Shown one piece after another: positions 22,335 to 51,026 of a stretch of 64,000 bases of DNA. The stretch lies in NCBI GenBank assembly GCA_020073395.1, contig JAIQFF010000008.1:1-64000 (forward strand), read 5' to 3'. The notes below the pieces were generated by a model, which did no database searches, was not told the DNA's origin, and saw only the letters and a list, made by a program, of their open reading frames with translations. Numbering within the stretch: the stretch's first letter is position 1; every line of letters begins with the position of its first letter. The DNA comes from Terriglobia bacterium. Lineage in GTDB: Bacteria > Acidobacteriota > Terriglobia > Terriglobales > Acidobacteriaceae. Both the position numbers and the translations under genes were made by a program.

Positions 22335-22404
22335 CAGTCGTCGGTCGTCAAGGAAATCCAGACGCCGCTTTGGCTGAAGACCGACGACTGACGACCGACG
22401 ACTG
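22335..22404. repeat. Intergenic word palindrome, perfect 15-bp inverted repeat
   Basis: CAGTCGTCGGTCGTC (22335-22349) and GACGACCGACGACTG (22390-22404). Confidence 0.9.
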
Positions 22405-23598: not shown

Positions 23599-24762
23599 AT
23601 GCCGCACGGTCCCGACCAGCTTTTGCTGCAGCTTCTCGCCATCTTTGTTTCTGCGAAGGTGGTGGGAGAGTTGTTCGAACGGGTAAAGCTGCCATCTGTC
23701 GTGGGCGAGATCCTGGCCGGAGCGGCGCTCGGCCCATTTGCCCTGGGCTGGATCAATCCCAGTGACACCATCCATTCGGTCGCGGAAATCGGCGCGATCT
23801 TTGTGCTGTTCAACGCCGGCCTCGAAACCAGCCCGCAGGACCTGATCCGGGTGGGCCGCCAGGCGCTGCTGGTGGCCGTCGCCGGCATCGTTGCGCCTTT
23901 CGTTCTGGGATTCGCTTACATGAAATGGCGCGGCGACGCTTCCAGCGAGGCCATTTTCGTGGGTGCGGCCATGGTTGCCACCAGCGTGGGAATCACGGCG
24001 CGCGTGCTGGGCGACTTGCACGTGATGGCGACGCGCACCGCCAAGATCATCCTGGGCGCGGCCGTCTTCGATGACATTCTGGGAATGGTCTTGCTGGCGA
24101 TTGTGGCCGGCCTCGCTTCGGGCGGCGGACTGGAGTGGCTGCACCTGGGCGTTCTGATGGTCGAAGCCACCGCCTTTGCGTTGTTCATGATTTTTATAGC
24201 GCCAAGAATTGTACGCAGAATCCAGCCCCGGATGGACCGCCTCTCCACCCAGCACGCTCCCCTGGTGGTGGCGCTGGCGCTATGCCTGTTCCTTTCGTGG
24301 CTTTCGGCGAAAATCGGCATGGCGGCCATCATCGGAGCTTTTTTTGCCGGGCTGATGTTTGCCGACTATGCTCCCCGCTGGAATCTGCTGCCGCGGGTGG
24401 GAGGCATTACCGAGTTTCTGGCGCCTTTCTTCTTTTTCGCTATCGGTTCGCGACTTGATGTGCGCCTGTTTACTGGAAACGTTTTATTGGCTGCAATCGC
24501 GATTTCTTTGCTGGCCATCGTTTCCAAAGTGGTGGGGTGTGGATTGCCGCTTTGGCGTGACGGCTGGCTGAGCGCGCTGCAGGTTGGCGTGGGCATGATG
24601 CCGCGCGGCGAAGTAGCCTTGATCGTTGCGCTGGTTGGACTGCAATCGCAGATCGTGCTGCCTTCTACTTACGCCATCGTCGTGTTCATGACCGCGGTGA
24701 CCACGATCCTGGCCCCACCTCTGATGCGCTATCTGTTTCGCGGCGAGATGAAACCGATGTAG
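23599..24762 (+). CDS. Kef/CPA2-type cation:proton antiporter
   Basis: VVGEILAGAALGPFALGWI, GAIFVLFNAGLETSPQDLI, GMMPRGEVALIVA; about 12 TM; stop codon TAG lies in a family C repeat. Confidence 0.88.
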   Translation: MPHGPDQLLLQLLAIFVSAKVVGELFERVKLPSVVGEILAGAALGPFALGWINPSDTIHSVAEIGAIFVLFNAGLETSPQDLIRVGRQALLVAVAGIVAPFVLGFAYMKWRGDASSEAIFVGAAMVATSVGITARVLGDLHVMATRTAKIILGAAVFDDILGMVLLAIVAGLASGGGLEWLHLGVLMVEATAFALFMIFIAPRIVRRIQPRMDRLSTQHAPLVVALALCLFLSWLSAKIGMAAIIGAFFAGLMFADYAPRWNLLPRVGGITEFLAPFFFFAIGSRLDVRLFTGNVLLAAIAISLLAIVSKVVGCGLPLWRDGWLSALQVGVGMMPRGEVALIVALVGLQSQIVLPSTYAIVVFMTAVTTILAPPLMRYLFRGEMKPM

Positions 24763-24856
24763 GTGCGAGCGTCACGCTTGTGCGTCGCTGTTCACAGGAT
24801 TCAGTTCTTGACGCCTTGATCCGCGACCCTGCACGAGCGTGGACGCTCGCGCCTAC
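24759..24856. repeat. Family C inverted REP pair
   Basis: GTAGGTGCGAGCGTCACGCTTGTGC ... TGCACGAGCGTGGACGCTCGCGCCTAC. Confidence 0.88.
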
Positions 24857-24901
24857 ATTGAACCCGGTTATAATTCCCCGTTCTGTTGGTGAGGAGAATT
24901 C

Positions 24902-32636: not shown

Positions 32637-33113
32637 ATGAGTGATGACGTGCTCATTCGGCAGGCCACCCCTGATGACATTTCCGCATTGCTGCGCCATC
32701 GCCAGGGGATGTACGAAGACATGGGCTACAACGACCCTGCGGCCCTATCTGCGATGGTTTCCACCTGCAGGCCCTATCTGGCCGCGGCACTGGAGAATGG
32801 AACGCTCCGGGGCTGGCTGGCATGCGCCGGAGAACAAATCGTGGCTGGCGGCGTGGTCCTGATCAGCCCGTGGCCAAGCCATCCCTACGATGGCCAGTGC
32901 CGCCGCGCCACGATTCTGAACATGTACACCGATCCGCCATTTCGCCGCCAGGGTATTGCCCGCCGGCTCATGCAGACCATGATCGACTGGTGCCGGAAGG
33001 AGGGTTTCGTGCATGTCACCTTGCACGCCAGTGATAAAGGTCGCCCGCTCTACGAGAGTCTGGGGTTTGAACCCACCAACGAGATGCGTTTGGAGCTGGG
33101 GGACACAATGTAG
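32637..33113 (+). CDS. GNAT family N-acetyltransferase
   Basis: ILNMYTDPPFRRQGIARRLMQTMIDWCRKEGFVHVTLHASDKGRPLYESLGFEPTNEMRL; TAG stop lies inside a family C repeat. Confidence 0.9.
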   Translation: MSDDVLIRQATPDDISALLRHRQGMYEDMGYNDPAALSAMVSTCRPYLAAALENGTLRGWLACAGEQIVAGGVVLISPWPSHPYDGQCRRATILNMYTDPPFRRQGIARRLMQTMIDWCRKEGFVHVTLHASDKGRPLYESLGFEPTNEMRLELGDTM

Positions 33114-33258
33114 GCGCGAGTGTCCCGCTCGTGCAGGCGTCATCAATCATGGCTTTGGTTTTCAACAAACGGGATCCCGGAAGACATGAACACCAAGAAT
33201 GCGTCAGGAGGTTGAGAGGGCAGTATTGCGGACGCACGAGCGGGACGCTCGCGCCTAC
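33110..33258. repeat. Family C inverted REP pair
   Basis: GTAGGCGCGAGTGTCCCGCTCGTGC ... GCACGAGCGGGACGCTCGCGCCTAC. Confidence 0.9.
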
Positions 33259-33287
33259 ATTGGGCTCCCCAGTGCTAAACTTGCCCC

Positions 33288-43573: not shown

Positions 43574-43580
43574 GAAGTTT

Positions 43581-43692
43581 GGAGCGCGAGCGTCCCGCTC
43601 GTGCGTCCGTGGTTCCTACCCTCTCAGTTTTCCTGATGCCATGATCGAACGCCGTTTATGGCGCCTGCACACGCGAGCACGCTCGCGCCTAC
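43581..43692. repeat. Family C inverted REP pair (GGAG and GTAG variants)
   Basis: GGAGCGCGAGCGTCCCGCTCGTGC ... GCACACGCGAGCACGCTCGCGCCTAC. Confidence 0.85.
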
Positions 43693-43815
43693 ATTCAATC
43701 CTCTAACCCTCGTCTCCTTAGTCACTTAACCCAACTCTTGCCCCATCCTAAATGAAAGCGCCTGTGGTACCCTTATGGTTTGAGCCCATACAATTGGAAG
43801 GATCATCTAAGAGTC

Positions 43816-46150: not shown

Positions 46151-47023
46151 TTGTGTTCAAATAAACCGGTGACGCTCCGCGCAGCTCTAGCCTCCGCCAC
46201 CTCGCGCCTTACGGCTGCGAGCGCTCCCTCGCCTCGCATGAATGCCGAACTCCTGCTCATGTTCACCCTGGAATGCGACCGCGCCTATCTCTATGCCCAT
46301 CCCGAGCGCAAGCTCTCCGCAGACGAACGGCGTCGCTACGATCAGACCCTGACCGAGCGCGAGCGCGGCATTCCCGCCCAATACATCACCGGACATCAGG
46401 AATTCTGGGGCATGGATCTGATCGTTTCTCCGGCCGTGCTCATTCCGCGTCCGGAAACCGAGCACGTGATTGAGGCGGTGCTCGCACATGTGGGGCGGGC
46501 ACCCTCGCCGACCGCTGCCTTGCTTCGCATCGTGGATGTCGGTACGGGGTCCGGATGCATCGCACTGGCCCTGGCCAAGGAATTGCCCCAGGCAAAAATC
46601 GACGCCACGGATATTTCACCCGCAGCCCTTGAAATCGCCCGCGCCAATGCAGCTCGCCACCAACTCGACGAACGAATCCAATTCCATCAAACCGACTTGC
46701 TGCGAGGGTTCGAGCGCGGTGCGTTCGATTTCGTGGTTTCAAATCCACCCTACGTGGGCGAATCGGAAGCAGACCAGGTACAACTTGAAGTCCGCAAGCA
46801 TGAGCCGCGCAACGCGGTCTTTGCTGGAGAAACAGGACTGGAAGTGATCGAGCGCCTGATTCCCCAGGCGGGTGAATCGCTCAAGCCCGGAGGCTGGCTG
46901 GTGATGGAGATTAGCGGCACCATCGCAGATCGTGTGCGGGGCCTGCTGGCTGGGTGGCACGATGTGCAGGTAACAAGGGATTTGCAAGGCATTCCGCGCG
47001 TGGTGTCGGCGCGAACCACGTAG
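46151..47023 (+). CDS. prmC: Release factor glutamine methyltransferase
   Basis: QYITGHQEFWGMDLIVSPAVLIPRPETEHVIEAVL, IVDVGTGSGCIALALA, FDFVVSNPPYVGE; non-ATG start (TTG/GTG). Confidence 0.95.
   Translation: MCSNKPVTLRAALASATSRLTAASAPSPRMNAELLLMFTLECDRAYLYAHPERKLSADERRRYDQTLTERERGIPAQYITGHQEFWGMDLIVSPAVLIPRPETEHVIEAVLAHVGRAPSPTAALLRIVDVGTGSGCIALALAKELPQAKIDATDISPAALEIARANAARHQLDERIQFHQTDLLRGFERGAFDFVVSNPPYVGESEADQVQLEVRKHEPRNAVFAGETGLEVIERLIPQAGESLKPGGWLVMEISGTIADRVRGLLAGWHDVQVTRDLQGIPRVVSARTT
46488..46512 (+). repeat. Palindrome-family fragment inside prmC encoding HVGRAPSP
   Basis: CATGTGGGGCGGGCACCCTCGCC, matching the purL insertion TGTGGGGCGGGCGCCCTCGCC. Confidence 0.75.
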
Positions 47024-48659: not shown

Positions 48660-51026
48660 TCAATCCGCCGCAACCGCCGCTGGTTCCGTACGTAGCGCCT
48701 TTTCCAGAGCGCCTTCATACACATCACGCAATTCCGCAACCGCCGCTGACACCACCACCCGGCCGTCGAGCCTAACTTCAACTCGCTCCGCCGCCGTCTC
48801 TCCAATCAATTCTGCCGCGATACCGTATTTTAACGCCACTTGTTGGATTCTGCCGAAGTTCTCGCGGTCGCAAGAGATGACAACCCGGCTCGCGTCCTCA
48901 CCGAAGAGAACAAACTCCGGCGGCAACCCCACAGACGTCAGATCGACATTCATTCCAATGCCTTTAGCCAGACCCGACTCGACGAGCGCCACGGCGATTC
49001 CGCCGTCAGAGCAGTCATGGGCTGAATCCACAATTTCGATTTGAGCTATTTCCACCAGCGCCTTCTGCAACGCTGCCTCTTTCTCCAGCTCCAACTCGGG
49101 AGGATAGCCCCATACCGCGCCTAGAACTTCCTTGGCATACTCCGACGATCCAAATGCTGATTCGGCGTCGGTCGCGTCGCCCGGTTCCGTGCCTCGCAGC
49201 AGAACGATAGCACGCCCCAGGTCGCGAAAATCCGGACGCACCGCCTGATGCACATCCTCGAAAACGCCGACGACGCCCAATACCGGCGTGGGATAAATCC
49301 CTTCGCCCAAAGTTTCGTTGTAAAAGCTGACATTGCCCCCGGTGATGGGAATTTCCAGTTCCTCGCAGGCCTTGGTGATGCCGTCAACCACCTGCGAAAA
49401 CTGCCACATGATGTGTGGTTTTTCGGGATTGCCAAAGTTCAGGCAGTTGGTGCCGCCGATTGGAGTTGCGCCAGCGCAAGCCACGTTGCGCGCGGCCTCT
49501 GCCACAGCGTGCATCGCGCCCAGCCGCGGGTCGAGGTAGCACCAGCGCCCGTTGCCATCGAGCGCCATGGCCAGCCCGCGCCGTGAGCCCTTAATACGGA
49601 TCACTCCGGCGTCGCCGGCACCCGGACCCTCGACGGTGTTGGTCTGCACCATATGATCGTACTGCTGCCAGATCCAGCGCTTGCTGCAGATGTTGGGGCT
49701 GGCCAACAGACGCTTGAGATTGGCAGTCAGATCGGAATTTTCTGCAAGCTTGACGTGCTCGGGCATTTCGCGCGGGACCGGCGGCTCCCAACGCTGCACG
49801 GGACGCTTGTACACCGGTGCATCGTCGGTGAGCGCCTGGTTGGGAATGTCGGCAACAACTTCCCCGTGTTGCAGGACACGCATCCTGCCGTCTGTAGTGA
49901 CGCGGCCCACCTCGACTGCGTCCAGTCCCCATTTTTCGAAGACACTAAACACTTCCTGCTCGCGGCCTTTTTGTGCTACCAGCAGCATGCGTTCCTGTGA
50001 TTCGCTCAGCATGATCTCGTATGCGGTCATGCCGGTTTCGCGCTGGGGCACGAGATCGAGCTCGATTTCGGTTCCCACATGGCCGCGCGCGCCCATCTCG
50101 CAGGTGGAGCAGGTCAGTCCTGCCGCGCCCATGTCCTGTATGCCGACGATGGCGCCGGTCTGCATGGCCTCCAGGCATGCCTCGAGCAAGAGCTTTTCGA
50201 GAAAAGGATCGCCTACCTGCACGTTGGGCCGCTTGGCCTCGGAGGCTGCGCTGAATTCCTCGCTGGCCATGGTGGCGCCATGAATGCCGTCGCGCCCGGT
50301 TTTTGATCCGACGTAAATCACAGGATTGCCTTCGCCCGAGGCTTTGGCATAGAAGATCTGGTCACGCCGTACCAATCCCAAAGCGAAAGCATTGACTAGC
50401 GGATTGCCGGAGTAGCAAGGCTCAAACTTGGTTTCTCCCCCCAGATTGGCTACGCCGAAACAATTTCCATAGGAGGCGATTCCGCTGACCACGCCCTCAA
50501 GCACAGATTGATTTTTATGAATTTCCTGCCTCGATGTGGGCGCGAGCGTCCCACTCGTGCTGGCGCCAACGCTGGCGGGCGAGGGCGCCCGCCCCACACC
50601 ACCAGCTTGAATCGGACCGAAGCGCAGCGAGTCCATTACCGCCACGGGCCGCGCGCCCATGGTGAAAATGTCGCGCAGGATGCCGCCCACGCCGGTAGCC
50701 GCGCCCTGAAAGGGCTCGATAAACGACGGATGATTGTGAGACTCGATCTTGAAGGCGCAGGCCCAGCCATCGCCGATGTCGATGATGCCCGCGTTCTCTC
50801 CTGGACCCTGCACTACCAGCCGACTGCGCGTGGGCAGCCGCTTCAAGTGCACGCGCGAAGATTTGTAGGAGCAATGCTCGCTCCACATCACGCTAAAAAT
50901 GCCCAACTCGGTGATGGTCGGCTCGCGTCCACCCAGTAGTTGTTTGATCTTTTCGAATTCGCCGGGAGTGAGGCCGTGCTCCCGGATGATCTCGGGGGTG
51001 ATAACCAGCGCTGAAGAAGGGCTCAT
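48660..51026 (-). CDS. purL: Phosphoribosylformylglycinamidine synthase subunit PurL with in-frame repeat insertion
   Basis: [75 protein letters not shown]-like [39 protein letters not shown]-like LSESQERML. Start [14 protein letters not shown] at 51026; upstream part of ORF looks non-coding. Confidence 0.96.
50534..50598 (-). repeat. Two palindromic repeats (family C plus TGTGGGGCGGGCGCCCTCGCCCGCC) inside purL
   Basis: rc TGTGGGGCGGGCGCCCTCGCCCGCCAGCGTTGGCGCCAGCACGAGTGGGACGCTCGCGCCCACAT. Confidence 0.9.

Follow-up and report, generated by a model that had tools for sequence, protein, structure and literature searches.

Within the window, i.e. the whole 64,000-nt stretch of DNA that was analysed, purL is encoded on the minus strand, and it is present as a single copy in the 5.5-Mb genome. 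The identity of its product was supported by the NCBIfam model NF002290, which was matched with 1002 bits against a cut-off of 648. The features of this gene and the related features elsewhere in the window are as follows:

48660..51026, minus strand: purL, the host gene, phosphoribosylformylglycinamidine synthase subunit PurL, 788 aa (NCBIfam NF002290/TIGR01736 and Pfam AIRS domains)
50528..50614, minus strand: the entire variable PurL loop (QAGG...RQE), predicted to be disordered (structure model; pLDDT < 50 for residues 144-159)
50574..50599, minus strand: repA, GTGTGGGGCGGGCGCCCTCGCCCGCC, a GTGG-tagged palindrome that reads VGRAPSPA in frame (genome copies and hairpin)
50561..50573, minus strand: 13-nt spacer AGCGTTGGCGCCA that separates repA and repC (pairwise alignment with the sister species G009)
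50535..50560, plus strand: repC, TGTGGGCGCGAGCGTCCCACTCGTGC, a GTAG/GTGG-tagged palindrome with the minus-strand reading STSGTLAPT (genome copies)
46489..46509, plus strand: degenerate repA in prmC (gene 46151-47023), reading HVGRAPSPTAA (blastn, 20/21 to repA)
24758..24858, no strand assigned: intergenic, outward-facing, REPIN-like pair of repC (genome copy search)
33109..33259, no strand assigned: intergenic, outward-facing, REPIN-like pair of repC (genome copy search)
43579..43694, no strand assigned: intergenic, outward-facing, REPIN-like pair of repC (genome copy search)

The initial annotation had described two palindromic repeats inserted in frame in purL, and both the sequence and the translation were found as described, with 50535-50599 as the exact span. 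The insert consists of repA and repC, each 26 nt in length and with the tags pointing outward, and the insert region is read in one unbroken open frame on the minus strand. Its layout is like that of a REPIN dimer, yet its two halves are two different families. The repA hairpin in purL has an 8-bp stem (-12.4 kcal/mol, z -2.4). The two palindromes had also been recognised as types that occur in spacers, which holds for the genome at large: at a maximum of three mismatches, 43 copies of repA (GTGTGGGGCGGGCGCCCTCGCCCGCC) and 45 copies of repC (TGTRGGCGCGAGCGTCCCRCTCGTGC) were counted, the dispersed copies being mostly intergenic, and the identical patterns read backwards, which served as copy-number control, gave 0 in both cases. 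With a 141-nt query over the insert 43 genome matches were obtained at E<=1e-3, and a whole-genome search with the adjoining 1,838 nt of purL returned no match except the sequence itself. On account of the 43 and 45 genome copies, the empty reversed controls and the adjoining 1,838 nt of purL matching only themselves, the insert is regarded as real and not as a product of chance. The repA copies carry the tag GTGG in 29 of 36 cases and only rarely GTAG (e.g. on contig C181); repC is tagged with GTAG in 14 and with GTGG in 8 of 25 copies, the copy in purL having GTGG.

Going beyond the initial annotation, prmC and further genes were found to carry the same repeats. The number of intragenic copies comes from inspecting the ORFs of the retrieved copies and is therefore a lower bound; a classifier based on codon usage overlooked those in the genes for MutM, HpnI and the RAYT, and translation of ORFs and family searches of selected ORFs were added. 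The genes with in-frame repeats in this genome are purL, prmC, mutM, an ABC exporter gene, hpnI and a RAYT gene. The identity of PrmC was supported by TIGR03534 (283 bits), and the segment concerned is 33-55 aa long in relatives, where it holds other repeats (e.g. G027, G028). MutM (Fpg) has two in-frame repeats in one 53-aa loop, repA among them (L004 / G000:C120:46391-46416; L269-L298). This loop is bounded by GKHIVFDLE and QWIVHLGMTG; in 29 relatives it measures 20-55 aa and holds differing palindromes, and a stem score of at least 7 was reached in 9 of the 29, a raw count without matched-window expectation. In the ATPase domain of the ABC exporter repA forms the in-frame insert KAAGEGARATRAGNGRVGTGHRPVEAEQG (L252, G000:C19:49779-49804), and in the HpnI glycosyltransferase it is read as KAAGGGVRPT (L230, G000:C271:33206-33231). 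As the MutM and PrmC loops behave alike, the PurL loop is not the only permissive one but one among several. A reading register common to all copies (AGEGARxT or VGRAPSP) was also considered; it fits this genome and was dropped on account of another register in relatives (PrmC of G028).

The REP-associated tyrosine transposase (RAYT) model NF047646 gave 10 matches in the genome, 4 of which were above the curated cut-off. A Y1 gene resembling REP_Tyr_transpos (C296:7829-8122) has repC on both sides, and the RAYT gene at C128:1088-1378 contains one repA in frame and is adjoined by two more repA copies (G000:C128:1021-1722). Each of the two repeat families thus has a physical link to RAYT genes. 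Five of the repA copies are perfect; purL and mutM hold one each, a third lies within the RAYT gene of C128 and a fourth next to it. The two transposase genes linked to repA and repC scored 75 and 69-70 bits, just under the NCBIfam cut-off of 80 bits, and they may be inactive, with four others passing the cut-off. By analogy with the REP literature, RAYTs are probably the agents that move repA and repC. The RAYT region G000:C128:1021-1722 was also seen to lie between two copies of an apparent 5S rRNA 3' end with terminator.

The PurL loop, counted from after SLRFG to EGV, comprises 40 aa in the window and 19-25 aa in those loops of the family that have no insert, while most of the 52 sequences from other phyla have 12 aa. 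The lineage-specific insertion that had been predicted, of about 20-24 aa and with DNA matching intergenic copies, was thus borne out, with a clear size difference relative to orthologs; the net gain relative to insert-free relatives is about 19 aa and not the full 24. The peptide itself is not conserved in distant relatives. The segment had further been called a short variable linker; variable it is, but in this lineage it exceeds the linker of other phyla by about 9 aa with the repeats left out of the count. The expectation of a loop agrees with the AlphaFold model of PurL (mean pLDDT 88.5), in which residues 144-159, between the strand 126-136 and the helix 166-190, are the only internal segment with pLDDT below 50. 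The model matched the fold of 3VIU with a TM-score of 0.86 by query length and 0.97 by target length, and the solved PurL structures of T. maritima and T. thermophilus have almost no counterpart to query residues ~138-173. Since the segment is missing from solved PurLs and is of low pLDDT, the insert is considered to occupy a turn that is dispensable to the fold.

Among 99 genomes of the family the PurL loop ranges from 19 to 54 aa and is a recurrent site, which likewise goes beyond the initial annotation. With a strong hairpin defined by a stem score of at least 7 and the expectation taken from windows of the same length in the same genes, strong hairpins were found in 22 of the 99 loops against 3.1 expected; in 200,000 simulations the maximum was 14 and none reached 22. 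By this matched-window hairpin test, an origin of the palindromes by chance in GC-rich coding DNA was rejected. Nearly all loops with a strong hairpin (20 of 22) fall among the 44 expanded loops, and the palindromes differ from species to species. Repeat matching within 10-20 kb around each purL proved too weak and was replaced by whole-genome searches, in which, among 40 scored candidates per genome, the loop palindrome recurred at least once elsewhere in the respective genome for 11 out of 12 tested species. For G004 and G047, many further own-genome copies of the PurL-loop repeat were listed.

In a PurL tree computed with the loop removed, carriers and non-carriers of the palindrome were paired as sisters in G104/G049 (support 0.999), G006/G082 (1.0), G092/G028 (0.988), G114/G063 (1.0) and G047/G103 (0.991), and Fitch parsimony required a minimum of 15 changes for the palindrome state and of 24 for expansion. 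In the loop alignments of the sister pairs the loop is replaced or remodelled and not cleanly split, and neither a clean empty site nor a target-site duplication was established from them. The sister species G009 of the same genus has both elements in common with the window and is 4 aa shorter overall; pairwise alignment placed a 12-nt shortening of its insert at the spacer between the repeats. With repA and repC common to both, the insertion in the window must be older than the split of these species.

Several further observations concern the PurL loops of other genomes. About 15 other copies of the G047 (L115) repeat, GGGTGCCCCAGGTCC..., are among those listed for its own genome and none is among the listed matches of the other 11 searched genomes, i.e. 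the repeat is lineage-specific at the same site. The loops AIRDERSAISES (L080, G080), AVSNQQSAVSQS (L083, G001) and SQQSALSSNALSSNA (L145, G093) resemble a translated non-palindromic spacer repeat, possibly of the class GACGACTGACGAC, which is present in the window at 22373, 28499 and 44894. Expanded PurL loops also occur beyond the close relatives, with 50 aa in Ca. Acidiferrum (L155) and 32 aa in Ca. Solibacter (L157), the latter with a hairpin, and from these expanded loops the phenomenon may reach across the class.

Elements shared between sister genomes show few differences. In the purL of the window genome and G009 (G000/G009), 1 of 26 positions of repA differs, compared to 36% at four-fold sites; for the shared purL elements of G068/G117 and G051/G106 the values are 2 of 32 against 34% and 1 of 25 against 45%, respectively. 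Set against the overall nucleotide divergence of 12.6%, 1 of 26 in repA is unremarkable (P about 0.14). The low divergence of shared elements is unexpected for an insert that simply decays neutrally and is not fully explained by the mechanism proposed below; its possible sources are renewed seeding or conversion by other copies, constraint on the amino acids and selection acting on the hairpin.

Taken together, the insert is very likely a pair of REP-type palindromes that was moved into purL from dispersed repeats, as an instance of recurrent insertion in permissive loops. Four other explanations were weighed against the same data. It is extremely improbable that the PurL loop is merely an intrinsically variable, GC-rich linker of low complexity in which palindromes arose by chance or replication slippage and no mobile element took part. 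Such a linker would account for the extra length of about 9 aa relative to other phyla in the absence of repeats and for expanded loops that have no strong hairpin (e.g. G107, G054), but the excess of hairpin loops over matched windows speaks against it, and for the window it is contradicted by more than 40 near-identical dispersed copies each of repA and repC with reversed controls of 0 and by the remaining tested purL DNA matching nothing else in the genome. That a single ancestral insertion in the PurL of the family diverged into the loops of today, without repeated insertion, is highly improbable as well: the junctions of several loops resemble one another, with CYACA-CAR ahead of the conserved AE[IL]HKN, but the palindromes of the various species belong to distinct dispersed families, each found in the respective genome, and on the tree sisters with an insert are interspersed with sisters that have none.

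The two remaining explanations assign a function to the insert. The hairpin could be kept for a role at the RNA or DNA level, such as an effect on transcript stability, a pause of the ribosome between PurL segments or protein binding, with the peptide as a by-product. The low divergence of the three sister-shared elements relative to four-fold sites lends this some weight, as do hairpins that fold better than their shuffles (z about -2.1 to -2.5); it is nevertheless unlikely, as the close relatives G049, G082 and G028 have no hairpin at the site, the element sequence differs between species, and the same repeats occur in unrelated genes at unrelated positions. Recruitment of the inserted peptide for a role at the protein level, e.g. 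in PurL-PurQ-PurS contact or allostery, is very unlikely. The repeat-derived peptides do stay in frame and consist mostly of small polar residues, and all clear repA cases in this genome follow one register per orientation, but no peptide is conserved between species, the peptide is absent from sister species and is predicted to be disordered, and other registers are used in relatives such as in the PrmC of G028.

For the insertion of mobile REP-type repeats into permissive loops, which is the preferred explanation, the following course of events is envisaged. REP hairpins would be spread by RAYTs acting on single-stranded hairpins and would insert at sites that are random or nearly so. Insertions in structured protein would be purged by selection, while those in a few disordered turns would survive where small local deletions leave a net length divisible by three. 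In PurL the insert would be read through as a disordered peptide rich in Gly, Ala, Pro, Ser and Thr between a core strand and a helix and would be retained as a presumably neutral segment of the mature enzyme. As the extra length would be harmless in this loop, insertions would be tolerated there and removed elsewhere, and with abundant donor repeats a permissive loop would be repeatedly hit, remodelled or emptied across the family.

GTAG REPs and REPINs are 20-40-nt palindromes tagged at one end that occur in high copy number, mostly between genes, form outward dimers and have linked RAYTs. Both repA and repC are imperfect palindromes in this size range with many dispersed copies, and the RAYT genes at C296 and C128 are linked to them, both below the cut-off of NF047646. 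The tag of repC conforms to GTAG, and that of repA deviates by one base, so that repA was filed as a GTGG-tagged REP-like element. The insert in purL differs from GTAG REPs and REPINs in being a dimer of two different families, and the trace of REP mobility consists solely of presence or absence between sister species. Intragenic in-frame GTAG and CGTC repeats, many of them in repair genes, have been described by Di Nocera et al. (2013; PMC3733652), together with different REPs at about the same recB site in two Xanthomonas species (PMC3733652). The present case exceeds the latter in that one homologous loop in many species and several genes are concerned. CGTC repeats have no known link to RAYTs, whereas repA and repC do.

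A parallel to Rickettsia palindromic elements had been drawn at the outset, and it stands as an analogy, the closer relatives being REPs of the GTAG type with RAYTs. The Rickettsia elements have entered unrelated housekeeping genes in frame and add tens of residues predicted to be compatible with the fold (reviewed in PMC10969869), and in-frame insertion in unrelated genes was also observed here. However, they have been described from Rickettsia and are ~150 bp long or CGTC-tagged (RPE-4/6), while the tags found here are GTGG and GTAG and not CGTC. On the best reading of this comparison, the insert would work like a Rickettsia palindromic element but would not be a member of that group. Being short and non-autonomous, MITEs with in-frame ORFs (ERIC, BOX, Correia and others) can likewise lengthen the protein of the gene that they enter; the structure here differs in being REP hairpins, without shown target-site duplication or terminal inverted repeats of the DDE type. 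The TIRYT repeats of Koribacter, Terriglobus and Granulicella (PMC3733652) come from the same phylum and combine tyrosine transposase genes with palindromic repeats, but their terminal inverted repeats are long and bear no relation to GTAG repeats, whereas repA and repC consist of one short hairpin each. Nothing specific on in-frame REPs in PurL or in Acidobacteria was found in a literature search that had most subscription journals outside its scope. In-frame REPs as such are already known; what is new, as far as found, is above all that homologous loops are used again and again across many species, in several genes, besides the acidobacterial setting and the dimer of two families.

In-frame palindromic insertions have until now been mainly a Rickettsia curiosity accompanied by scattered REP examples. 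The loops of PurL, MutM and PrmC provide a natural replicated experiment on how mobile non-coding repeats become protein sequence and where this is tolerated, and they bear on whether REPs and RAYTs still move. For annotation and phylogenetics they are a warning, as alignments of acidobacterial PurL, MutM and PrmC hold repeat-derived, non-homologous segments. We tentatively suggest, as a possibility that is for now rather doubtful, that the loops of PurL, MutM, PrmC and other proteins are standing docking sites for REPs throughout the family, continually re-seeded or homogenised with the dispersed repeats as source, so that their elements would be fresher than synonymous sites. If this were true, mobile hairpins would constitute an ongoing supply of new protein sequence in these bacteria.
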